17,405 nucleotides of DNA from Methanomicrobia archaeon. Lineage in GTDB: Archaea; Methanobacteriota_B; Thermococci; Methanofastidiosales; NM3. Positions 1 to 17,405 of the stretch are shown here, one piece after another (the stretch's first letter is position 1; every line of letters begins with the position of its first letter). Both the position numbers and the translations under genes were made by a program. The stretch spans positions 1 to 17,405 of the forward strand of contig JAUVXU010000024.1 in the NCBI GenBank assembly GCA_030603445.1. Reading direction: 5' to 3'. A model generated the notes under the pieces. That model was not told the DNA's origin and searched no databases. It was given only the letters and a program-made list of their open reading frames with translations.

Positions 1-2137
1 TTGAAATACATTCAATTCAAAGTCGTCAACATCGAAATAGGCATGTCTTCATAAAACTAATATAGTATTGAAATCGATAATAACGCACTGCTTTTTTATT
101 GCCACGGACCGTCTTCATAAAACTAATATAGTATTGAAATATAGGTACATCCAAATCAATCGCGCCAGGATCATCAGGTCTTCATAAAACTAATATAGTA
201 TTGAAATATTATAGAGGTGTTGGAATCATATAATGGCGACCTATGTCTTCATAAAACTAATATAGTATTGAAATAGATACGCAACCGGCGGCCACGTTGA
301 ATCTAAAACTCGTCTTCATAAAACTAATATAGTATTGAAATTCATGAAACCTGCCGACGAAATGACAGAGGCTATGGGTCTTCATAAAACTAATATAGTA
401 TTGAAATAGGATTTCATCAACTGCTATTTCGTTTCCTGCCCCGGTCTTCATAAAACTAATATAGTATTGAAATACTAATGCCACGTGCGCCCTGAATATC
501 AAGTCTGATAGTCTTCATAAAACTAATATAGTATTGAAATATTGCATTTTCAACGATAATAATGACGGGGAAAATATGTCTTCATAAAACTAATATAGTA
601 TTGAAATGATATAAAAATAGGTTGGGGCGACACAGGAAATAGGGGTCTTCATAAAACTAATATAGTATTGAAATATTTTTAGCTGGACCAAGACCGTCGT
701 CGTCGTTGCACGTCTTCATAAAACTAATATAGTATTGAAATCCTAAAACACAAGAAATAATCCTTGCTCTCGGCACGCGTCTTCATAAAACTAATATAGT
801 ATTGAAATTTGAGAGTTACGCGCTCGTTTAAAACAAACACGCCTGGTCTTCATAAAACTAATATAGTATTGAAATACCGTTGTCGCCGCCCATTCGCAAC
901 TGCAATTATATGTCTTCATAAAACTAATATAGTATTGAAATCAGGTACGCTAAATTACTTACAGGGCGCAATTTTAAGGTCTTCATAAAACTAATATAGT
1001 ATTGAAATCGGTCTGAAGATCTACATAGATCGTCCCTATCTCCCGTCTTCATAAAACTAATATAGTATTGAAATGGGGACAAAGGACAGCGGAAAAACAA
1101 CGTTAGCAATGTCTTCATAAAACTAATATAGTATTGAAATTAAATCGTGTGGGTAAGAATTACTTTTTTATTTCGGTGTCTTCATAAAACTAATATAGTA
1201 TTGAAATAAGTAAATCAAGACATTCACGGGAAGATATTCGCCCAGTCTTCATAAAACTAATATAGTATTGAAATAATAATTCTTCCACTTCAACACCTAA
1301 TGCGGCAGAAGGTCTTCATAAAACTAATATAGTATTGAAATTCGAACATATCAGATAGTTCGGCGGGCGTTACGTTAGGTCTTCATAAAACTAATATAGT
1401 ATTGAAATCCGCAATTGGTATGTTGGGTGATATTGGTATAAAGGGTCTTCATAAAACTAATATAGTATTGAAATAAAATAGTCATACCAACTAACTTTAC
1501 ATTTATTGTTGTCTTCATAAAACTAATATAGTATTGAAATCCTTGAATATGTCGAAATTGATTGTAAATATGTGGTGTCTTCATAAAACTAATATAGTAT
1601 TGAAATGCTGCAGAAACTAGCCCTCTTGCGGAAGCAAGTGCTGTCTTCATAAAACTAATATAGTATTGAAATCCGATGTAAGGTATTGCTCCAGTTCATC
1701 CCTGTTGTGTCTTCATAAAACTAATATAGTATTGAAATTGAGATTAAGGGACTTTATCAAAAAAGTGGAAAACTCGTCTTCATAAAACTAATATAGTATT
1801 GAAATCAAAACTCAAATTCCCACTTGCAGAGGGATGGAGAGAGTCTTCATAAAACTAATATAGTATTGAAATGTGTTTTCGACTTCTAGTGCGACCACAT
1901 CAAATTTTGTCTTCATAAAACTAATATAGTATTGAAATTCTAGTATAGTTGGAGTTATTATGAAATCAAAAAATCGTCTTCATAAAACTAATATAGTATT
2001 GAAATAAGTTTGTAATAGAAAGCATAATGTGAACGGAGTAGGTCTTCATAAAACTAATATAGTATTGAAATTAAGGAAGCAATGTTCAAAAAGAAAATTC
2101 TAGGGAGGTCTTCATAAAACTAATATAGTATTGAAAT
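1..2137 (+). CRISPR. CRISPR array, 32 full repeats plus one partial, truncated at the left edge
   Basis: A 30-base repeat beginning GTCTTCAT and ending ATTGAAAT recurs every 66-67 bases. The first full copy is at 45-74 and the last at 2108-2137; bases 1-7 are the end of a further copy. I read all 32 full copies as identical, including the last. The 32 spacers are 36 or 37 bases long and none looks duplicated. The terminal ATTGAAAT matches the 8-base crRNA 5' handle left by Cas6 in archaeal type I-A/I-B and III systems, so transcription should run left to right, with the leader outside the window to the left and 2137 the trailer end. From memory, the repeat resembles the 30-base Pyrococcus furiosus repeat at about 22 of 30 positions. 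Its only internal symmetry is a weak ACTA/TAGT stem, so it is essentially unstructured. No cas gene lies within the window. Reverse-strand open frames across the array are artefacts of the repeat. Confidence 0.98.
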
Positions 2138-6187: not shown

Positions 6188-8800
6188 ATGATGCCAAAGA
6201 CCTATGAAATAAAAGAAATAGAGAAAAAATGGCAAGACAGATGGGAAATAAAGAAAGTGTACAGATTTGACTTCAAATCGGATAAACCAATTTTTTCCAT
6301 TGACAATCCTCCAAGATACGCTTCAGGAGGACTGCATATTGGACACGCCACCCATTACACCCACATAGACATGATAGGCAGATACAAGAGGCTGATGGGT
6401 TACAATGTATTTCTGCCACTTTGTTTTGATGTTAACGGCATGCCGATAGAAGTTAACGTTGAGAAAAAATACAAGATATCTCCACGTGACACACCACGCT
6501 CTGAGTTTACAACATTATGCAGTGAATTTGCAAATAACAATATTTCAACAATGATAAATCAGTTCAAGATTCTTGGGTGCTCATTTGACCCATCCATATA
6601 TTATCAGACCGATGCTGAATACTACCGCAGGATTACTCAAATATCATTTTTGAAGATGCTTGAGAAGGATATGGTATACAAAGGCAAGCATCCGGTCAAC
6701 TGGTGCACCCGTTGTGTCACAGCGCTTGGGGACGCCGAGATAGAGTACGACGACAGGGAAACTATGTTAAACTACATCAAATTCTACCTAGAGGAAGATG
6801 TGGAAAGTACACCAGACATTAAAAAAGACCACAACGGTGCATACGTTACCATAGCCACTACAAGACCTGAACTACTGCCAACATGCCAGATTGTTGCAGT
6901 AAATCCAAAGGACCCTCGTTACAAATCAATTGTCGGAAAGACCCTTATAACCCCTATTTTCAAGAGAAAAGTAAAGATTATAGCAGACGAATCTGTAGAA
7001 ATCGAATTTGGAACTGGGATCATGATGATATGTTCCATAGGCGATAAGGACGACTTGGTGTATATATACAAAAACAACCTTGAATTTGAAAAAGCAATCA
7101 ATGAAGAGGGGAGAATGACCGATATTTGCGGTATGTATGAGGGAATGACTACAATAGAAGCCAGATCAAAAATAGCGCAATGGATGCAGGACAAAGACCT
7201 GATGGTAAAAAGGGAACCCACTCCCCAAAACGTTGGAACATGCTGGAGATGTCATACGCCTGTAGAATTCCTTGTCAAGGACCAGTGGTTTGTAAAGATA
7301 CTTGAATTCAAGGAAAAGATAAAAGAAGCGGCAAATAATATCAAATGGCACCCTGAATGGATGAAAGTTCGTCTAGATCAGTGGATAGACTCGCTCTCAT
7401 GGGATTGGGTAATTTCACGCCAGCGCTATTTTGCCACCCCAATACCTGTTTGGGAATGTACAAACTGCAAGAAGATTTTTCCAGCAAAAATAGAACAATG
7501 CTATGTCGACCCATTAAATGACGAACCCCCAATTGCATTCTGCCCAGAGTGTAAAGGCGCCCTTAAAGGATCCACAGAGGTGTTTGACACCTGGATGGAT
7601 TCATCAATTTCTGCACTATACAATACGTTCTGGAACAGGGATGAAAATAACTACAAAAAACTTTACCCTATGTCTTTACGAACTCAGGCACACGATATTA
7701 TCAGGACCTGGGCGTTTTACTCTATACTTCGTACAGTGCTCCTCACGGATCAGGAACCCTGGGACAACATATTTATTGACGGGCACATACTTGCCCCCGA
7801 TGGAAGGTCAATGCATGCCTCATGGGGCAATACAATAGACCCACTAGAGATAATTGAAGAAAATGGATCCGACCCTATGCGTTACTTTGCTGCCTCGCGG
7901 GGGCTTGGAGAGGATAGCGCGTTTTCCTGGAAAGAGATCACCCATGCACTAAGATTCATAAACAAGATATACAACATCGGGAGATTCCTGAAATCTGCAG
8001 ATTCTAAAGGTAAAGAAACCCTAATTGACCGATGGATTGCAAGCGAACTTGCCCTAAGTATAAAAAACGTTGAGGAAGCAATAGAAAAATACCAGTTCTC
8101 CAATGCCCTAAGAGAAGTTGAAGGATTTATATGGCATATATTCGCAGACAATTATTTGGAGATAATAAAATATCGCCTGTATAACAAGGAGCTGCCAAGT
8201 GACTTCGTAAAACAAATCTATGACGACGCACTTAAACTAATAGCGCCTGTTCTAGTCCACGTGACCGAAGAAGTACATGATCATCTAATCGGAGACAAAA
8301 CTAGCATCCACACAAGCCAATGGCCATCAAATTATGTTGTTGATGAGGAGGCGTTACGAAAGGGTAGACTAGCAAGAGATATCATCTCTGAGATACGAAA
8401 GTGGAAATCCCAAAACAAGATGCCGCTTAATAAAGAACTCAACAACGTAGTGCTTTATACTAAAGAGGATCTTACTGAGATAATAGACGACATAAAAAAC
8501 ACTATGAACATAATCAATCTAAAGGTAAGCTTAGATAAGCCTGATGTAAAAGAAGTTATAGTTAGTATAACCCCTAAATACTCTGTCCTTGGACCAACTT
8601 TCGGAAAAGACACAACAGTTGTATCAGAACTGTTATCAAGACCCGAAGTTGCAAAAGAGGTAATTGAGCATGGCACATTTGAAGCAGAAGGTTTTACTCT
8701 AAAAAGAGAATACATATCAAAGATTGAACATGCCTTTGAGCTAAAAGGAAAAAAAGTAGAGCTTATCGAACATCCTGAGTTTATAATTGAGATAGATTAA
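6188..8800 (+). CDS. valS: Valine--tRNA ligase, archaeal type, with altered KMSKS loop
   Basis: This class I aminoacyl-tRNA synthetase charges tRNA-Val in the cytoplasm. From the ATG at 6188 it is 870 residues. HIGH is intact at 50-53 (GGLHIGHATHYT), and FDVNGMPIEV follows at 80-89, as in the archaeal ValRS clade. Zinc-type pairs are CTRC at 173-176, CWRC at 352-355 and CTNC/CPEC at 424-455. The editing domain carries TTRPELL at 224-230 and EFGTGIMMICSIGDKDD. The region equivalent to KMSKS reads SMHAS at 541-545 inside DGRSMHASWGN, so both lysines are missing. The anticodon-binding helices follow at about 605-760, then a C-terminal extension. An in-frame GTG at 6179 would add three residues, but GTGA there fits better as the ribosome site of the ATG at 6188; the ATG at 6191 is also possible. 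The stop overlaps the convergent lipoprotein gene by four bases. Confidence 0.93.
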   Translation: MMPKTYEIKEIEKKWQDRWEIKKVYRFDFKSDKPIFSIDNPPRYASGGLHIGHATHYTHIDMIGRYKRLMGYNVFLPLCFDVNGMPIEVNVEKKYKISPRDTPRSEFTTLCSEFANNNISTMINQFKILGCSFDPSIYYQTDAEYYRRITQISFLKMLEKDMVYKGKHPVNWCTRCVTALGDAEIEYDDRETMLNYIKFYLEEDVESTPDIKKDHNGAYVTIATTRPELLPTCQIVAVNPKDPRYKSIVGKTLITPIFKRKVKIIADESVEIEFGTGIMMICSIGDKDDLVYIYKNNLEFEKAINEEGRMTDICGMYEGMTTIEARSKIAQWMQDKDLMVKREPTPQNVGTCWRCHTPVEFLVKDQWFVKILEFKEKIKEAANNIKWHPEWMKVRLDQWIDSLSWDWVISRQRYFATPIPVWECTNCKKIFPAKIEQCYVDPLNDEPPIAFCPECKGALKGSTEVFDTWMDSSISALYNTFWNRDENNYKKLYPMSLRTQAHDIIRTWAFYSILRTVLLTDQEPWDNIFIDGHILAPDGRSMHASWGNTIDPLEIIEENGSDPMRYFAASRGLGEDSAFSWKEITHALRFINKIYNIGRFLKSADSKGKETLIDRWIASELALSIKNVEEAIEKYQFSNALREVEGFIWHIFADNYLEIIKYRLYNKELPSDFVKQIYDDALKLIAPVLVHVTEEVHDHLIGDKTSIHTSQWPSNYVVDEEALRKGRLARDIISEIRKWKSQNKMPLNKELNNVVLYTKEDLTEIIDDIKNTMNIINLKVSLDKPDVKEVIVSITPKYSVLGPTFGKDTTVVSELLSRPEVAKEVIEHGTFEAEGFTLKREYISKIEHAFELKGKKVELIEHPEFIIEID

Positions 8801-10944
8801 TCCACCACGAAATCTTGTGCCCATTTTGGGATTGATGGCATGTCCCCTAATTTTAGTATTTCTTGCCATTTTTCGTCTGTTAATCTATCATCAAGAGGAT
8901 GCTTGAACTCATAGTATGAAAATACAGGCCCTTGGGAAATATATGTCTCACCCTCAACGTTAACAATCACAAATAACGTAAAAGGGTAACCAACGGCCTC
9001 TTCAAGCACCATCATTGAGTTCACATCTGTATGAACATCTGCAACAAGAGCTAGTGAGTTGTCAGCCTCCGATACAATAGAATCTTGGACCGATTGGGAG
9101 AATGTTGTTATATCCTCAAGAAGCGTCCCTATGTTCATGATAAGTTCGTACTCTATGCTATCAATTTTCTGTCCGGAAATCTCCTTTTCTGAGATGGTAA
9201 TCAAAGCTTGCAACAGTGAATCATACATATAGAATTTCTCGGTGAACTCTTCTGTAATTAGTCCTCTCTCTATTAGGCCGTCATGTGCCATGCGCGTAAG
9301 GGAAAGCAGTCGTGCATAAAGCACTGCATTTGGTTCGACATAACCGTTTGTTGCATTAGGTTGTTGTGGTACAGAAGTGGCCTCGAAAGTATACGACTGC
9401 TTTGCATAAAGGATAGTATCATGACGCAGCTGCGTCCAAGATCCCAATGCTGTGAATAGCTCCTTTCGTTTCCACATCTGTGATTGCATAAAAGCCGGCC
9501 ATCCGTCAGCAGGCTCTGTTTGATAAGAAGATAAACAATAAAGCCAGGAGGTATACATGTTCTTTGACCAGTCATCCACAGTATAAGCGTCAACTTCTTT
9601 TCTAAGTGCTTCTATCTGTTTATCATAATCTATATAATCAGTATCTCCTTCTTCCTCAAGAATCTGTTCTGCCTCATCAAAATTAAGCACGCTGAATACG
9701 TCAAGCCCGCGCGGAAATCCCCTTATAGGGCCTGCATCGCTTATTACAAGAGTAAAAGGAGTATCTTCGCCCAAATAACTAGTGACATTATTATATACAA
9801 GCTCCGAAAAGATATAAGAATCCAAGATAAATCTCTGTCCCATAAATCGAAAACCCTTTGTATCGTCAACTAGGTCCTGTTGGTCTGTAATTACGCTAGA
9901 GTTGATTTTTGGATCCCTTAATTCCTTGGCCTGATCGATAAACTCATCTAAGAGCAACGAGTCACCCACATCATCAAGCGATACTTCCTCTCCGTATATC
10001 TTTATGATAAGTTGTGAGTAATCATGAAGCGTGAGATCATCCGCCTCGCCTACAAAGAAAGACGTGGTCTCATAAATATTATCCCAAACAAGAACTGCAT
10101 CACGGTTATCGATCGTTATATTTTGAATTGCAAGCACGCTAAGTATGGCTGCACGCGTTTCAAGTTGTTCTTTTAATCTGAACGGCATCCTTCCATACCA
10201 CATCATGGCCTTAAAATAGTGCCCAAGTTCCTCTGTTCGTGTGTAATGGCCTCGAGGAACATACTGGGAATAATCTTCCCTATAATCAAATAAGGGGGAA
10301 ATGCTAATGCCATTAGATCCATCAATAAGGGTTAATTCCGCATTTACAATGTCTTGCACATAACTAGGGATCTCAGCCTCTTGGTCAAGCAGCTTCAACG
10401 CAATAGCAAAGAAAGCAACGTTCATCTTTGCAGCTTCTCTCACGTCGCCAACAGAGTTTTCATATTGGGAGTTTGAAGCTTCGCACATTGCTAGAGTAAG
10501 TAAGGTTAGATCATTTATGAAAAAGTCTTGTTCTATACATCGCAAAGAGTAATCATAAAGGATATGAAAAGAATTTAGGATTGAGTCTGTTGTTACAAAT
10601 ATCGGGATATTCCTATCCCTTAAAATCTCATAATACTCATGGAACAACTTATCCTCAAAAGATGGAACCACAACAAAACCGTATTGTTCCAAAAACTCTT
10701 TTTGTCCACTGGTTAGTAAGAAACTATCCATATTCGATGGCGTGAAATCGTATATCTCATTTTGTGGATTTAATTCCACACTTAGCTCCTCATAACTTGA
10801 GAATTGTTGGTTGTCGTGCATAGATACCTGATAGGTGATTGGTTCTGTGCTTTGTTGTGGGGACTCCCCTGATATGCATGCAGACACTAAAAGGACAACC
10901 ATAATGAACATATAAGGTAGATATTTTCTCAAGTTTTCTGTCAT
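8797..10944 (-). CDS. DUF3160 family surface lipoprotein
   Basis: This 715-residue protein begins with a short charged stretch and a hydrophobic segment (10-22) ending in the lipobox LVSAC, so C23 is the predicted lipidation site and the protein should face outside the membrane. The body matches the DUF3160 family, with PIFVTTDSILNSFHILYD at 114-131, YFKAMMWYGRMPF near 245, and a C-terminal block VADVHTD at 634-640 followed by LEEAVGYP, GPVFSYYEF and DRLTDEKW. The family occurs in bacteria and some methanogenic archaea; its function is not established. Predicted structure is mostly helical. The gene stands alone on the minus strand, with a TATA box directly before the start implying a leaderless mRNA. 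Its TAA interlocks with the valS TAA, so neither gene has its own downstream spacer. Family and lipoprotein calls are firm, the role unknown. Confidence 0.88.
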   Translation of the reverse strand: MTENLRKYLPYMFIMVVLLVSACISGESPQQSTEPITYQVSMHDNQQFSSYEELSVELNPQNEIYDFTPSNMDSFLLTSGQKEFLEQYGFVVVPSFEDKLFHEYYEILRDRNIPIFVTTDSILNSFHILYDYSLRCIEQDFFINDLTLLTLAMCEASNSQYENSVGDVREAAKMNVAFFAIALKLLDQEAEIPSYVQDIVNAELTLIDGSNGISISPLFDYREDYSQYVPRGHYTRTEELGHYFKAMMWYGRMPFRLKEQLETRAAILSVLAIQNITIDNRDAVLVWDNIYETTSFFVGEADDLTLHDYSQLIIKIYGEEVSLDDVGDSLLLDEFIDQAKELRDPKINSSVITDQQDLVDDTKGFRFMGQRFILDSYIFSELVYNNVTSYLGEDTPFTLVISDAGPIRGFPRGLDVFSVLNFDEAEQILEEEGDTDYIDYDKQIEALRKEVDAYTVDDWSKNMYTSWLYCLSSYQTEPADGWPAFMQSQMWKRKELFTALGSWTQLRHDTILYAKQSYTFEATSVPQQPNATNGYVEPNAVLYARLLSLTRMAHDGLIERGLITEEFTEKFYMYDSLLQALITISEKEISGQKIDSIEYELIMNIGTLLEDITTFSQSVQDSIVSEADNSLALVADVHTDVNSMMVLEEAVGYPFTLFVIVNVEGETYISQGPVFSYYEFKHPLDDRLTDEKWQEILKLGDMPSIPKWAQDFVVD

Positions 10945-11255: not shown

Positions 11256-13883
11256 ATGAAAAGACACTGTATTCCTCTACATATGGCAAAGAAATACGGG
11301 ATATCAAAAATTGGTGGAAAAGCAATCAATCTATCAAAGATGATTAATGCAGAGTTCACCATCCCTATGGGATTTATAGTGCCAGTAGAAACGTATGAAG
11401 AATTTTTTAAGAATAATGGGCTTGAAAAAAAAATACTATCCTGTCTTGAAGACTTAGACTTTTCTGATGAAAAAGAAATATCCAAATGTTCTATCAATAT
11501 CAAAAACATGATATTAAATGGCCATGTTTATAACAATATTTTTGAAGAGATTTCTGATTCATTGGATAATTATAAATTATTTCTTTGGGCAGTTCGCTCC
11601 TCTGCTACAGCAGAGGATCTTCCCGAAGCATCTTTTGCTGGCCAACAGGATACTTACCTCAACGTTAAAACAGAAGATATCATGGCCCATATCAAGCTTT
11701 GTTGGGCATCATACTGGAATGATAGGGCAATATCTTATCGCCATCATGTCAACATACCTCACTCAAAGGGAGGTATTGCAGTAGTTATACAAAAAATGGT
11801 AGATTCACGCACATCAGGAGTTATGTTTACAAGAAACCCAGTAAATAAATCAAGTGATGATATTATCATTGAATCTAGTTGGGGGCTTGGGGAGTCCATT
11901 GTATCTGGAATTGTAAGCCCGGATAGATTTACCTGCAAAAGAGTTGATGGCCATATATTATCTGAAGAGATTAGTAAAAAGACAAAAGGTATCTTTCTAT
12001 CTACAGGACAAAATCAAATAACAAAAATAGAGAAAAATAAGCAAAAAACACCATCGCTCACTAAAGATGAAATATCAGCATTAGTGGAACTGGGAAAGAG
12101 AATAGAGACATATTTTGAATGTCCGCAGGATGTAGAGTGGTCTATAGAGAATGATAAAATACATATACTACAGTCACGGCCTATCACAACATTAGAAAAA
12201 GATGATGGGATATTGTGGACAAGGGGATATGGCGACGAATACTGGGCTGATATCACTTCTCCGCTCTTTTTTTCTTTACTTGGAGAATACCTTACAAAAT
12301 ATGTTAATCATGAAGGTGCAAAAATCATGGGATACCATGAGATAACGGATGCAAAACTTCTACGGTTGCATAAAGGACATATATACTTCAACGCTGGTGT
12401 GCTCGAAGACATATTCACATTCAATCCAAAGTTTTCACGTACGAAGGAATTGCTAAATTATTTCCCTGAATCCGAGCAGGAAAGAATAGCAAATGCAAAG
12501 ACAAAGAAATTACGCAGGATATGGGCAGAAATCAGGATAATGATATTTGATCCTGATGGCAGTATCCTAAAAACTGATAAAGCATATAGAACTTGGGCAG
12601 AAAAATATCTTAAAAAAATGGAAAAATATGATGATCTTGATTTATCCCAACTTACCTATGAAGAGCTCCATGACCAATATATCTTGATGTTTTGGTCATT
12701 TGTTAAGCATTACAGGCTGATAAGGCATGGCATGGTGACTCACAGCATTGGCACCAATCTTATGGTAAAAAGATGGTTAATAGATTGGCTTGGCGACACA
12801 TCAGGCACATTATACTCAAAATTGATATCCGGCCTGCCAGACAACAAGACGATAAAAACAAATATGGATATGGTTAAGTTATCAAATTCGATCAGGGAAA
12901 ATAAAGACCTATCATCCATACTGCTTGAACAAGACGCAGAAGTGTTCTTAGAAGCTATTAGATCCAGTGACAAATACTTAGATCAAAGAACAGAATTTGA
13001 ATTGTTCTTAAAAGATTATGGACACAGGTCCCATACTAGAGAGATATTCTTTCCACGATGGAAAGATGATCCCTCCCTTGTAGTTGACGTACTTAAATCA
13101 CTTGTATCCTCGCCAAAAGTGGATATGGATGCGATGGAAAACAACGCAGTAGAGGGAAGATTACAATGCGAAAGAGAGGTATTTGAAGCTATTAGCAAGC
13201 TGAAATATGGGTATTTTAAAAAACAATTGTTCAAATACGTTATGCGTTTTGCTCAAACATATCTTATATTTAGGGAAAATCAGAGATTTTATCTTGACCA
13301 CATAATATGTCGCCTCCGAAGACTATTTAGTGAATATGGAAATAGATTTGTTCATCAAGGAATCATATCTCGTACAGAAGACATATTCTTCTTATCAAAA
13401 GAAGAGATTTTTTCTTTAGCCAAAAATCCGTCAGCAAACATGAAGGCCAAGATATCTGCTAGAAAGAAAGAATTTAAAAAATATGAAAACATTCTTCCAC
13501 CCAAATTTATTCAGGGAAGAACTGAATTTGATGATACTATAACAAAAGAAGAAGACCATATCAGAGTGACCGGGACTTCAGTTAGCCCCGGTATTGTAAG
13601 GGGCAGAATACGCGTTGTTTCGTCAATTAAACATATCTCCAGTATAAAAGAAAATGAGATACTTGTTACTTCTAATACTGACCCGGGATGGACCCCAATA
13701 TTTGCCAAATTAGCTGGTTTAATAACAGAAACTGGAGGCATACTTTCTCATGGGGCAGTTGTTTCAAGAGAATACGGTATCCCTGCAGTGACTGCGGTCA
13801 AGAATGCCACAGTATTTTTTAGAACCGGCCAATATGCCACAATTGATGGCAATGAGGGGATAATCTATCTAGAGGAGGAATAA
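11256..13883 (+). CDS. Rifampin phosphotransferase-like dikinase (ATP-grasp plus phosphohistidine domain)
   Basis: The 875-residue protein has three parts. Residues 1-312 are a PPDK/PEP-synthase ATP-grasp domain, with KIGGKAINLSKM at 18-29, VRSSATAEDLPEASFAGQ at 113-130, GVMFTRNP at 188-195 and DVEWSIENDKIHILQSRP at 292-309. Residues about 315-770 are a large helical middle domain. The C terminus is a swivelling phosphohistidine domain, with ETGGILSHGAVVSREYGIPAV at 825-845 and predicted catalytic H832. There is no PEP-binding barrel, so it is not a true PEP synthase. Domain order, length and histidine position match rifampin phosphotransferase (about 865 residues), which moves the beta-phosphate of ATP to an antibiotic hydroxyl. 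Here the middle domain would bind an unknown acceptor, so rifampin itself should not be assumed. GTGAT three bases before the ATG supports the start. It is followed after three bases by a lipocalin-like gene, suggesting one pathway. Confidence 0.85.
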   Translation: MKRHCIPLHMAKKYGISKIGGKAINLSKMINAEFTIPMGFIVPVETYEEFFKNNGLEKKILSCLEDLDFSDEKEISKCSINIKNMILNGHVYNNIFEEISDSLDNYKLFLWAVRSSATAEDLPEASFAGQQDTYLNVKTEDIMAHIKLCWASYWNDRAISYRHHVNIPHSKGGIAVVIQKMVDSRTSGVMFTRNPVNKSSDDIIIESSWGLGESIVSGIVSPDRFTCKRVDGHILSEEISKKTKGIFLSTGQNQITKIEKNKQKTPSLTKDEISALVELGKRIETYFECPQDVEWSIENDKIHILQSRPITTLEKDDGILWTRGYGDEYWADITSPLFFSLLGEYLTKYVNHEGAKIMGYHEITDAKLLRLHKGHIYFNAGVLEDIFTFNPKFSRTKELLNYFPESEQERIANAKTKKLRRIWAEIRIMIFDPDGSILKTDKAYRTWAEKYLKKMEKYDDLDLSQLTYEELHDQYILMFWSFVKHYRLIRHGMVTHSIGTNLMVKRWLIDWLGDTSGTLYSKLISGLPDNKTIKTNMDMVKLSNSIRENKDLSSILLEQDAEVFLEAIRSSDKYLDQRTEFELFLKDYGHRSHTREIFFPRWKDDPSLVVDVLKSLVSSPKVDMDAMENNAVEGRLQCEREVFEAISKLKYGYFKKQLFKYVMRFAQTYLIFRENQRFYLDHIICRLRRLFSEYGNRFVHQGIISRTEDIFFLSKEEIFSLAKNPSANMKAKISARKKEFKKYENILPPKFIQGRTEFDDTITKEEDHIRVTGTSVSPGIVRGRIRVVSSIKHISSIKENEILVTSNTDPGWTPIFAKLAGLITETGGILSHGAVVSREYGIPAVTAVKNATVFFRTGQYATIDGNEGIIYLEEE

Positions 13884-13886
13884 AAG

Positions 13887-14801
13887 ATGGATACAGATGT
13901 TTTTCACGATGTACTAGCAGACGATCCAGAATGGAATGAAAGCTTTTACTTCAATTGTTATGACAAAGGAAATGACATATGCATATTTATGCGAATAGGA
14001 AACAAACAAAACAAGGATGAAAAGAGCATGTTTTGTTTTATTATGCTTCCTGACGGATCATTTATGGGTTTAAAAGGGGAAGAAGCACTTGATTCTAAAA
14101 TGCTTAGTGTGCTTGGTTTGTCCTATAAAAAGATCGAAGCAGAAAAAGAGTGGAAACTATGTTACCAAGGTACAATGGAGCATATTTCCAAAAACGGGCC
14201 CCTGCAGGCGAATGTGCAATTTGATCTAACATTTTATGCGCTAAATAAAATATTTGATTACAGAAAATGTGTCACAGATAGTTTTAAAGAGAAAATATCC
14301 CAACAAGTTGCATCAGAACATCTGGAACAGTATGGCAAGATAACAGGAAAACTATCAATTAACAATAAACAAATCCAAATTACGGGCCTTGGCGAACGCG
14401 ACCATTCATGGGGAGTACGGGACTGGACATTTCCTAATATGTGGGTATGGTTAACAAGCGGATTTTCTGAAAAGCTTGCACTAAATGTTACAAAGCTATA
14501 TGTTGACCAAGGTGAGGTAGATGCAGGATTCTTTTATGAAAAAGGGAAAAACGATCCATTAAAAGCAATCGACATATCAATAGACTATGATGATGAAAAA
14601 TCACCTAAATCATTTTCAATGACGCTAAGAGACGAAGATGAGAAAATATACTATGTCACTGCGAAAATACTGCGCCAGGTTGCATTGCCTTTCGTTAGCA
14701 ATGACGGGGGAAAAATATCAATAATGTATGAAACACTGGCAGAATACATATATGATGGGGAAAAAGGATATGGCATTGCCGAATTTTTAATAAAAAAATA
14801 A
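13887..14801 (+). CDS. CrtC/AttH-like lipocalin-fold protein
   Basis: This 304-residue protein has no signal peptide or membrane segment. The motif GERDHSWGVRDW at 169-180 is typical of the hydroxyneurosporene synthase (CrtC)/AttH and DUF7064/7065 group, which have two lipocalin-like beta barrels and bind hydrophobic ligands. In CrtC the fold hydrates carotenoid double bonds, while most relatives have no known reaction. The N-terminal half (residues 1-140) is beta-rich in pattern (FYFNCYDKGNDICIFMRIGN, MFCFIMLPDGSFMGL), as expected for the first barrel. GGAGG at 13874-13878, inside the end of the upstream gene, sits eight bases before the ATG, and the intergenic gap is three bases, so it is translated from the same mRNA as the dikinase. 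The pairing suggests that both act on one lipid-like or polyketide-like compound (inference). A T-run follows the stop at 14847. Confidence 0.75.
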   Translation: MDTDVFHDVLADDPEWNESFYFNCYDKGNDICIFMRIGNKQNKDEKSMFCFIMLPDGSFMGLKGEEALDSKMLSVLGLSYKKIEAEKEWKLCYQGTMEHISKNGPLQANVQFDLTFYALNKIFDYRKCVTDSFKEKISQQVASEHLEQYGKITGKLSINNKQIQITGLGERDHSWGVRDWTFPNMWVWLTSGFSEKLALNVTKLYVDQGEVDAGFFYEKGKNDPLKAIDISIDYDDEKSPKSFSMTLRDEDEKIYYVTAKILRQVALPFVSNDGGKISIMYETLAEYIYDGEKGYGIAEFLIKK

Positions 14802-15278: not shown

Positions 15279-15290
15279 AGTTTTTATATT
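15279..15290 (+). promoter_or_regulatory. Possible TATA box of the secreted-protein operon
   Basis: AGTTTTTATATT with the A-rich GGATAAA just upstream would place initiation near 15310. The resulting leader of about 45 bases would include the complete ribosome site. The TATATATA inside the second palindrome is an alternative box, but it would start transcription inside the ribosome site. Confidence 0.4.
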
Positions 15291-15294
15291 ATTA

Positions 15295-15308
15295 AGTATA
15301 GTAATACT
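15295..15308. promoter_or_regulatory. Operator-like palindrome 1, AGTAT-N4-ATACT
   Basis: AGTAT (15295-15299) and ATACT (15304-15308) are inverted copies separated by AGTA. The site lies between the predicted TATA box and start of transcription, where a bound repressor would block polymerase. The same half-sites and spacing recur 16 bases on. Confidence 0.45.
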
Positions 15309-15310
15309 AG

Positions 15311-15324
15311 AGTATATATATACT
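15311..15324. promoter_or_regulatory. Operator-like palindrome 2, AGTAT-N4-ATACT
   Basis: AGTATATATATACT is a perfect 14-base palindrome with the same half-sites and 4-base spacer as the site at 15295-15308. The centres are 16 bases apart, so two dimers would sit about one and a half helical turns from each other. It overlaps the predicted initiation site. Confidence 0.45.
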
Positions 15325-15342: not shown

Positions 15343-15352
15343 GGGAGGTGAT
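15343..15352 (+). promoter_or_regulatory. Full-length Shine-Dalgarno sequence that fixes a TTG start
   Basis: GGGAGGTGAT is complementary to the conserved archaeal 16S 3' end (CACCUCC core) over about nine bases. It ends three bases before TTG at 15356, the same spacing seen at 5389 and 11256. This argues against the upstream in-frame GTG at 15341 and predicts strong translation. Confidence 0.85.
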
Positions 15353-15355
15353 AAA

Positions 15356-15715
15356 TTGAAAATTAAGGCATTTGCAGTATCAATCGGATTATTGATGCTG
15401 ATTACGGCAATGGTTGTGGCAGCAGATTTCCAATTCAATGAATATGACAGCGATGCAGGCTTGTATGTCAATACAAGCGCAAGCGTTTCAGGCACAGCAC
15501 ATACCGATGGGTCCAAATCTAACGTTAGCTATGGCCATAATACCTGGGACCCTATTCCTGGAGATGAATACTGGGTATATGGAACCTGGACTAAGAACAC
15601 GCCTGGCACATCATATGTTGCTAGTGGAAATGTTACTGCCGAATCAAAGGGTATAGTGGGTTATGGAATTATCCACTTTACTGACTATTGTCATGCCGTT
15701 GCAATATTCGGATAA
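15356..15715 (+). CDS. Small secreted beta-rich protein of unknown function
   Basis: The protein is 119 residues from the TTG start. A classic signal peptide (positively charged MKIK, hydrophobic 5-21, AVVAA-type cleavage near residue 22-23) leaves a mature chain of about 96 residues. That chain is rich in G, S, T, Y, W and N, with alternating polar and aromatic residues (GDEYWVYGTWTKNTPG at 69-84) that suggest a beta sandwich. It has three N-glycosylation sequons (N39, N56, N92), one cysteine (C112), and ends in HAVAIFG. I do not recognise the family. Size, export signal, very strong ribosome site and position before a surface protein and an ABC ATPase resemble lactococcin 972-type bacteriocin loci, but sequence similarity to that family is not convincing to me. 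A secreted toxin, an adhesin-like protein or a surface-coat protein are all possible. A T-tract follows the stop. Confidence 0.8.
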   Translation: MKIKAFAVSIGLLMLITAMVVAADFQFNEYDSDAGLYVNTSASVSGTAHTDGSKSNVSYGHNTWDPIPGDEYWVYGTWTKNTPGTSYVASGNVTAESKGIVGYGIIHFTDYCHAVAIFG

Positions 15716-15739
15716 CTTTTTCTTTTCTTTTTTCTTTTT
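15716..15739 (+). terminator. T-rich tract between first and second genes of the operon
   Basis: Directly after the stop codon the plus strand has four T-runs (T5, T4, T6, T5) interrupted by single C residues. Such oligo-T tracts are archaeal termination signals. A ribosome site for the next gene begins only eight bases later, so partial rather than complete termination is likely. Confidence 0.55.
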
Positions 15740-15758
15740 AATTATAGGAGTGGAACAT

Positions 15759-16826
15759 ATGAATTATAAATTAATTATAATATGCATATTTATTATGCTT
15801 AACATTGGAAGTATCGGACTGGTACAGGCATCAAGCGCATACGGGCTCGAAGAGGGGGATTATGCCATCTATCCTTTTGAGTTCTATGACTTTCTATTAA
15901 ATGATCTGCATTGGTACGAGGATGCAAAAGGTTATTTCTCATGGGAGTGTCTTAATAAAACTGGCAATATCGCGCAGATAGAGATAAAGTTTGAATTTGT
16001 GACAAATGCAAAGTATTGGAGTAAAAAAGAGCAGAAATGGCGCCCTAATGAGATTAGGTTTGATGGCATCGAATATGTTAACATGTTTAATAAGGGCAAT
16101 TATAGCTTCCTCGATTCAACGTATGTGCGAAATGACGTGTCTACTGAAAAAATATACGTCGATGAAAGCTCCGTAGTCGTAGAGGCCCCGTTCGAGATAT
16201 CCATCCTAAAAATAATCGAGCTTGACTTGGGCACTATGTTGTATCAAATTCCTGATGAGGGTGTATCTGGCAAATGGGTATGGACAATCAATCCTGACGT
16301 TTTCTCCATGCATGAGGAGCAAGAGTACCTATACTCATCGGACTACTTCTCCCAAGAAGTAAATTTGAAGATGATATACCTTGATGTGGAGACGAACAAA
16401 GAAATGGAAGTTCTCTCAGAACTAGCTGGTCTCGATGAAACCAGTGGGTATTATCTTTTTACAACTAAGGAAATGGAAATAAATAAGCTGGGGCAAGAAG
16501 GGGAGGAATATCTCTCGATAAGCAATTTATACAACGATAACAACGGCCTGTTACTTACCAATTATAGCATGATATTCACTGATGACCTTTCCGTGGATGT
16601 ATTGCATATCCTCAATGCATTTGCGGGCGCAGACCTCTACAACGGGGTCGTACCAACACCGCATCTGAAAGCGGAGGAGTATAATCTTTCCCATGTTGTC
16701 AGTACATTGAACACACTATTGGATGATGATGGTACCGACTACGCCCTTTACTTCATGATCATGGTGGTAATATCCTGTATGGCCCTTGCTACGTACTTAT
16801 TCGTTGAGCGGAGGAAAGAAACATGA
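15759..16826 (+). CDS. Single-pass surface protein with large extracellular domain
   Basis: From the ATG at 15759 this is a 355-residue protein. The start is chosen because GGAG at 15747-15750 lies eight bases before it and a signal peptide begins right there; the longer frame from 15663 overlaps the upstream gene and the T-tract. Residues 4-24 form the signal segment (cleavage near QASS). Residues about 25-325 are an acidic extracellular region beginning GLEEGDYAIYPFEFYDF, with several N-glycosylation sequons (first NKT at 66-68). Residues about 329-349 are a membrane helix, followed by ERRKET facing the cytoplasm. I do not recognise the family. It is not an ABC permease, having only one stable helix. 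Its stop overlaps the ATG of the ABC ATPase (ATGA), so the two are translationally coupled. Such a protein could be a transporter-associated surface domain or an immunity/receptor component. Confidence 0.8.
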   Translation: MNYKLIIICIFIMLNIGSIGLVQASSAYGLEEGDYAIYPFEFYDFLLNDLHWYEDAKGYFSWECLNKTGNIAQIEIKFEFVTNAKYWSKKEQKWRPNEIRFDGIEYVNMFNKGNYSFLDSTYVRNDVSTEKIYVDESSVVVEAPFEISILKIIELDLGTMLYQIPDEGVSGKWVWTINPDVFSMHEEQEYLYSSDYFSQEVNLKMIYLDVETNKEMEVLSELAGLDETSGYYLFTTKEMEINKLGQEGEEYLSISNLYNDNNGLLLTNYSMIFTDDLSVDVLHILNAFAGADLYNGVVPTPHLKAEEYNLSHVVSTLNTLLDDDGTDYALYFMIMVVISCMALATYLFVERRKET

Positions 16827-17405
16827 TGATTAATGTCAGGCACATCAGCAAGAGCTACGGGGGTAAGCTAGTGCTTAATGACATTTCGTTTGCCTTTGAC
16901 AACGGAGTGATGGGTTTCATAGGCCCCAACGGAGCTGGCAAGAGCACCCTTATCAAAATCATCCTAGGGTTGGTGGCACCAAACGAGGGAGAAGTGAACA
17001 TCCTAGACAAAAACATAAGCACGGATCGGATGGGAATTATGAGAAATATCGGCGTACTCCATGAAAAATGCATTTACCCGCCAACAGTAAAAGGAAGCGA
17101 GTATATTGAGTTCATGTCCAAGTACAAGGGTGTAACGACAGAAGACCTGAAAAAGATATGTGAATTCGCAGGAGTGTACGACTACATCCACAAGCCCATA
17201 GGCTCTTATTCTGCCGGTATGCTGCAGCGATTTGGATTTGCCGAAGCCATAGTGGGGTTTCCAAAGCTCGTAATACTTGATGAGCCAACGTCAAATCTTG
17301 ACCCTCTTGCCAGAAGGGAGATACTAAACAAAATCAATGTTCTGCACAAGGAACATGATATGAGTTTTATTATATCAACACACATCCTATCCGAACTGGA
17401 AAAGA
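16823..17405 (+). CDS. ABC transporter ATP-binding protein (partial, runs off the window)
   Basis: The first 194 codons are present. Walker A is GPNGAGKST at 34-42, the signature is YSAGMLQR at 129-136, Walker B is LVILDEPTSNLD at 149-160 and the switch histidine is H187 in ISTH. The pattern (short linker, SAGMLQR signature, LDEPTSNLDP) is that of ABC-2/drug-export type ATPases rather than nutrient importers. The usual Q-loop glutamine position reads H80 in GVLHEK. GGAGG at 16810-16814 is eight bases before the ATG, which overlaps the upstream stop; a second ATG at 16826 is possible. The permease is expected just beyond the window. As the third gene of the operon it probably exports, or removes from the membrane, something related to the secreted protein (inference). 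Confidence 0.93.
   Translation, partial: MMINVRHISKSYGGKLVLNDISFAFDNGVMGFIGPNGAGKSTLIKIILGLVAPNEGEVNILDKNISTDRMGIMRNIGVLHEKCIYPPTVKGSEYIEFMSKYKGVTTEDLKKICEFAGVYDYIHKPIGSYSAGMLQRFGFAEAIVGFPKLVILDEPTSNLDPLARREILNKINVLHKEHDMSFIISTHILSELEK

Follow-up and report, generated by a model that had tools for sequence, protein, structure and literature searches.

Loci of the lactococcin 972 and streptococcin B (scbABC) type begin with a gene for a small, beta-rich, unmodified protein exported by Sec, which is followed by genes for a membrane protein and an ATP-binding cassette (ABC) component. In lantibiotic producers, a surface-anchored immunity protein (LanI) and an ABC-2-type transporter (LanFEG) shield the producing cell from its own product. 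Some pneumococcal strains without a functional Sec-exported toxin still keep the B and C genes of scb (PMC11796350). In archaea, secreted proteins have been proposed to act on relatives as archaeocins, of which halocins and sulfolobicins were the only protein representatives described by 2023 (PMC10105419); the self-protection of archaeocin producers is little known, and no archaeocin system for Thermococcales or Methanofastidiosales was found in the literature searched. Here we describe a cassette at the right end of the window (the whole stretch of DNA analysed, a 17,405-nucleotide contig of a Methanofastidiosales archaeon), in which genes for a small secreted protein and a surface protein, here called SURF, stand with those of an ABC-2-type transporter, and in which the small protein is a candidate toxin. 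The window takes up all of contig C14 of the draft genome G000 (1.62 Mb, 48 contigs), and its right end is therefore where the assembled sequence breaks off.

A five-gene cassette and its described counterparts

The three genes at the right end of the window, all on the plus strand, are as follows, with the signal peptide of the small protein:

15356-15715, plus strand: small secreted protein gene, TTG start, 119 codons, about 97 amino acids when mature, of no known family
about 15356-15421, plus strand: signal peptide of the small protein, Sec-type as judged by eye
15759-16826, plus strand: SURF, 355 amino acids, single-pass, with an N-terminal signal segment, an ectodomain of about 300 amino acids, a C-terminal transmembrane helix and the tail RRKET
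16823-17404, plus strand: first 194 amino acids of an ABC-2-type exporter ATPase, cut by the contig end and apparently continuing on contig C21

The end of SURF overlaps the start of the ATPase gene through ATGA, so translational coupling is likely, and the small gene, SURF and the ATPase gene form one operon. An earlier note on this DNA, made from the letters of the window, had proposed such an archaeal operon, and both the gene reading and its recurrence elsewhere (below) bore this out. Its advice to extend to the right for a permease also proved sound: a search with the permease of a related genome, G003, found contig C21 of G000, which starts with ggaaaagatctg; its first eight bases are those with which the window ends (ggaaaaga). 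The ATPase frame runs on across the two contigs (SELEK-ICSDIMILNSG, compare SELERVCDKIMIFNQG in G003), and from the shared bases, the frame and homology the contigs probably join. On C21 the ATPase is complete at about 240 codons, and an ABC-2 permease (253 amino acids) and a 160-amino-acid protein with a transmembrane helix and an outside domain (the ectodomain protein) follow it. The cassette has five genes, namely small, SURF, ATPase, permease and ectodomain protein, and with an ABC ATPase and an ABC-2 permease in one operon its transporter is of the ABC-2 exporter type.

The truncated ATPase (P0003) matched Pfam ABC_tran (PF00005) at 2e-23 and its best NCBIfam models were of the exporter or ABC-2 type (GldA, lantibiotic protection, DrrA), all far under their cut-offs, in keeping with the export-type ATPase named earlier. 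It is 48% identical to the ATPase of the G003 cassette, compared to 35% for its best paralogue in G000. Permease P0005 matched PF12679 at 4.7e-10, and permease P0010 at 8.6e-5 (22.4 bits, under the 27.2 cut-off).

As in the lactococcin 972 and scbABC loci, the first gene of the cassette is for a small, apparently unmodified protein, here predicted to be beta-rich and exported by Sec, and genes for a membrane protein and an ABC component come after it. In general outline this resembles their three-gene order of Sec toxin, presumed immunity and transporter, although here there are five genes and an ABC-2 permease; the earlier view of a lactococcin 972-like order with unrelated sequences stands. 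Membership of the lactococcin 972 family itself failed: P0001, P0009 and P0013 matched nothing in Pfam or NCBIfam, the partner in the cassette is an ectodomain protein with a single membrane pass, and the ABC-2-type transporter is made of separate ATPase, permease and ectodomain subunits. Also unlike lactococcin 972 loci, small gene and SURF pairs swap against a fixed transporter, and the host is an archaeon without peptidoglycan or lipid II. The combination of a surface-anchored protein with an ABC-2-type transporter is shared with LanI and LanFEG, but unlike in lantibiotic loci the secreted protein has about 100 amino acids and no modification enzymes were seen beside the small gene. LanFEG/LanI-type membership was rejected, the truncated ATPase reaching 129 bits against the 309.75 cut-off of TIGR03740, the lantibiotic protection model (second-best in NCBIfam). 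In its proposed working the cassette resembles lactococcin 972 loci and the self-immunity of lantibiotic producers, but by the tests done it is a member of neither.

The small protein resembles archaeocins as a protein of an archaeon with a signal peptide predicted by inspection, but unlike halocins and sulfolobicins it has no sequence family match. The hypervariable secreted VARTIG proteins of Thermococcales, which undergo recombination (PMC8416519), differ in being built around large immunoglobulin-domain proteins (arCOG07710), and ABC transporters are unmentioned in that paper. No description of the cassette was found in the open-access literature searched, and it is likely to be new.

Recurrence, pair exchange and loss of the small gene

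A survey of neighbourhoods, also recommended by the earlier note, found the same gene set in G003, in Thermococcaceae and in family f20. G003, a metagenome-assembled genome of Ca. Methanofastidiosia from the same family as G000, was the sole genome found in contig scans; its order is SURF, small, permease, ectodomain protein, ATPase, in which the small gene follows SURF and does not precede it, and its SURF is 24% identical to that of the window (E 1e-15). A SURF profile of two rows found one genome of the class, and with that member added it found 43 of 396 genomes, mostly of a family of small complete genomes in the same class as the window genome (f5), which is probably Thermococcaceae. The usual order there is small, SURF, permease, ectodomain protein, ATPase, in a single position on the chromosome that follows a ferritin-like gene, and the order small, SURF, ATPase, permease, ectodomain protein is found in G000 and in three f20 genomes (G246, G280 and G398). 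A variant in G289 (family f28) has SURF and a transporter and no clear small gene. In profile comparisons between the window type and Thermococcaceae, SURF scored 37.6 (maximum 23.7 in 60 shuffles) and the permeases 79.8 with hhalign (shuffled maximum 19.6), which supports homology of both, and the ectodomain protein scored more weakly (21.0, shuffled maximum 17.8). There was no match among plasmids in the cassette search, and no cassette in the nearest relatives G001, G002 and G004, whose genomes are only 77-89% complete. A comparison with G001 could show no empty site, because the flanking genes lie there on separate contigs and are only 48-53% identical.

A small secreted open reading frame (ORF) was found within 200 bases upstream of 25 of 50 SURF genes, compared to 3 of 256 controls (genes of at least 200 amino acids other than SURF, from the same set of loci; p 1e-19 by Fisher's test); the 25 include one PIN-like false positive (L102), and L117 and L133 have a small gene that the filter missed. 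As the gene set recurs in independent genomes and the small ORF is enriched before SURF, the small gene is linked to SURF and the cassette is more than a chance association.

In Thermococcaceae the small gene and SURF act as a swappable unit, independent of the transporter genes. Across the eight f5 loci whose small gene is intact, identities of the small protein followed those of SURF (Mantel r 0.84, p 0.011) and showed no correlation with those of the three transporter proteins, permease, ectodomain protein and ATPase (r 0.16-0.22). Among themselves these three correlated at r 0.79-0.91, and SURF against ATPase was intermediate (r 0.39). The SURF tree conflicts with that of the transporter block: forcing the SURF type B loci together on the transporter data cost 183 log-likelihood units (approximately unbiased test, p-AU 1.8e-57) and forcing type A together cost 386 (p-AU 4e-113), p-values which are not formal because the groups were picked after the trees were seen, the margins being very large. 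Single comparisons show the same, with transporters of L097 and L104 95-99% identical but their SURF 69% (only L097 having a small gene), and with L107 and L109 96% identical in the small protein and 95% in SURF but just 73% in the permease. Between L062 and L097 the synonymous distance is 0.29 for the small gene and 0.35 for SURF, against 0.80-1.10 for the transporter genes. Tandem small and SURF pairs, two in L131 and three in L130, stand ahead of a single transporter.

The small gene has also been lost repeatedly. Eight loci at the site common to f5 have SURF and the transporter but no small gene (L098, L101-L106 and L110), several of them with the leader of the small gene now directly before SURF; it is also absent with SURF and ABC genes intact in L115 and L119, and broken in L100 (frameshift) and in L113 and L114 (interrupted). 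On the SURF tree losses lie beside intact relatives (L119 by L117, and L098 within the type A clade). Sequencing error could account for single frameshifts but not for the absences.

Some loci depart from this plan. In L102 a PIN-domain-like toxin ORF (about -577 to -164 of SURF) occupies the small-gene slot between the ferritin-like gene and SURF, and L103 has a shortened copy of it. L122, L123, L130 and L134 hold up to four SURF paralogues and a protein of about 530 amino acids with signal and transmembrane segments, with ABC-2 genes adjoining the arrays in several of them; the cassette thus has a second and larger form in these arrays. SURF also stands without a small gene at 4338-5408 of L134 (minus strand) and at 5000-6064 of L112, the latter an orphan surface protein with no ABC genes nearby.

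Toxin, ligand or envelope component

We give an even chance to the small protein being an archaeocin-like secreted toxin, of putative toxicity, from which SURF and the ABC-2 transporter would protect its producer. Toxin and immunity are favoured because the small product is variable, is exchanged together with SURF, is duplicated with it as pairs and is lost while the partner is kept, the last also resembling scbABC, where the toxin is gone in some strains and the remaining genes are kept (PMC11796350). The small protein would be made from a strong ribosome-binding site and, judging from its signal peptide, exported by Sec rather than by the cassette transporter; once outside, it would act against close relatives that do not carry the matching partner. 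SURF, in the producer membrane with its domain outside, would bind the cognate small protein or shield its target, a role suggested by the pairing and co-transfer, and the transporter (ATPase, permease and small ectodomain subunit) may with SURF clear the toxin or exclude it from the producer membrane, much as LanI and LanFEG do with lantibiotics.

Several observations weigh against a toxin. The mature small proteins have net charges of -12 to +1, unlike cationic membrane-active peptides; those of the window, G003 and f5 show no significant sequence similarity to one another, and a common function rests on position because of this. SURF paralogues also stand in arrays that hold few small genes (L122, L127 and L134), and G005 has a divergent (27%) trio of permease, ectodomain protein and ATPase without small gene or SURF (L063). 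A ligand-receptor system would account for the swapping and pairing as well. In it the small protein would be a molecule of self-recognition, adhesion or signalling sensed by its paired SURF, the ABC proteins would be transducer or exporter, and the diversity would mark kin instead of serving to kill. Co-inheritance and tandem pairs suit this equally well, recognition is an apt task for proteins that are acidic and aromatic, with predicted beta strands and a single variable loop, and Thermococcales have other hypervariable surface systems (VARTIG, PMC8416519); repeated loss of the secreted partner with SURF and ABC genes intact is however less expected, and ABC-2 transporters do not usually transduce signals; we consider this reading unlikely.

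Lipids and glycans are commonly moved by ABC-2 transporters, and SURF and the trio might handle such a surface component in envelope maintenance or export, with the small protein an optional accessory or chaperone. The many Thermococcaceae loci with SURF and ABC genes alone, and the G005 trio, would be explained, but a housekeeping role should not swap a surface protein and its accessory together against a fixed transporter, nor be missing from the incomplete genomes G001, G002 and G004, and we regard it as quite improbable. The earlier note had held that ABC genes conserved without the small gene would count against its bacteriocin-like reading; these same loci bear that out only in part, and they also fit loci of immunity only. 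In favour of that reading, the pair swapping, tandem pairs and small-gene loss found here are as expected of toxin and immunity; membership of the lactococcin 972 family is not supported. That the small protein coats SURF as a variable barrier or decoy against viruses or vesicles, with virus pressure driving its diversity, seems very improbable to us: variability and block exchange agree with it, but the need for an ABC transporter is left unexplained and PADLOC gave no match for the small protein or SURF, defence islands not having been searched, and only generic ATPases for the ATPase.

The architecture of five genes, its recurrence, the pairing and swapping of small gene and SURF and the repeated loss of the small gene are observed. 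With somewhat less than even confidence we propose that this is a new system of competition among archaea. In it, a hypervariable protein exported by Sec and its cognate, membrane-anchored ectodomain protein would move together onto the ABC-2 transporter already resident at a locus, some pairs would stand in tandem, some loci would keep immunity without a toxin, and the small-protein slot would have been kept across distant archaea as its sequence diverged beyond recognition. Thermococcaceae include genetically tractable strains, and if the small protein is a toxin the cassette would make archaeal toxin immunity directly testable there, and a large family of unannotated surface proteins would gain a function.

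The small protein, its leader and the rest of the window

The N-terminus of the small protein has a lysine-rich region and then a hydrophobic core, with predicted cleavage near VVA|ADF. Neither it nor SURF had a convincing match in Pfam, NCBIfam, PADLOC, PHROGs or PDB sequences, in agreement with the earlier statement that the small protein is of no known family; Epx4 was rejected as a PDB relative, as this best hit (E 0.019) covered residues 39-83 only and the accompanying beta-helix matches point to composition. AlphaFold2 models from two-row alignments gave mean predicted local distance difference test (pLDDT) values of 38 for the small protein, with strands predicted, and 40 for SURF, too low for a fold search. 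Across groups the mature small proteins have 90-127 amino acids and are mostly acidic, with 11-19% aromatics. In close Thermococcaceae relatives purifying selection acts on the gene that fills this slot (omega about 0.18), and one loop takes 56 of 152 nonsynonymous differences among recent changes. Homology of the window small protein to that of G003 is unproven (local alignment p 0.17), and its profile score with those of Thermococcaceae lay inside the range of 100 column shuffles. A C-terminal A-x-[IV] motif, present in 8 of 10 representatives against 2.35 expected in shuffles, was set aside because it was picked with the sequences already in view and the window protein lacks it.

Upstream of the small gene the following elements were noted:

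15282-15290, plus strand: TATA-box-like element TTTTTATAT, by eye, some 25-30 bases ahead of where transcription could plausibly start (putative)
15295-15308, plus strand: palindrome AGTATAGTAATACT, operator-like copy 1, of a pattern expected 0.06 times in the window
15311-15324, plus strand: palindrome AGTATATATATACT, operator-like copy 2, starting two bases past copy 1
15344-15352, plus strand: Shine-Dalgarno sequence GGAGGTGAT of nine bases, the sole copy in the window

The tandem 14-bp palindromes (AGTATNNNNATACT) thus sit between the TATA-like element and the Shine-Dalgarno sequence, an arrangement unique to the window small gene among 175 loci fetched; the window holds three copies, the third inside a CRISPR (clustered regularly interspaced short palindromic repeats) repeat. 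The same nine-base Shine-Dalgarno sequence precedes the G003 small gene, and similar G-rich leaders precede those of Thermococcaceae. In G003 (L034, 8723-8340, minus strand) it is perfect but no ATG, GTG or TTG stands at the expected spacing, which suggests, judging by frame, an ATA start or an assembly error.

Elsewhere in the window, a CRISPR array at 45-2138 has about 31 copies of a 30-base repeat (GTCTTCATAAAACTAATATAGTATTGAAAT) with spacers of 36-37 bases, part of it misread by the ORF finder as a repetitive protein at 1375-1650 (minus strand, false). A lipoprotein-like DUF3160 protein (3e-202) at 8797-10944, minus strand, adjoins an aminoacyl-tRNA-synthetase-like gene. A phosphoenolpyruvate-synthase-like protein (PPDK_N and PEP-utilizers domains) and a DUF7065/DUF7064 protein starting three bases later occupy 11256-14801, and their genes are likely an operon for some pathway. 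Another contig of G000 (C26, locus L042) is rich in exporters, with four ABC-2-type ATPases and their permeases within 22 kb.
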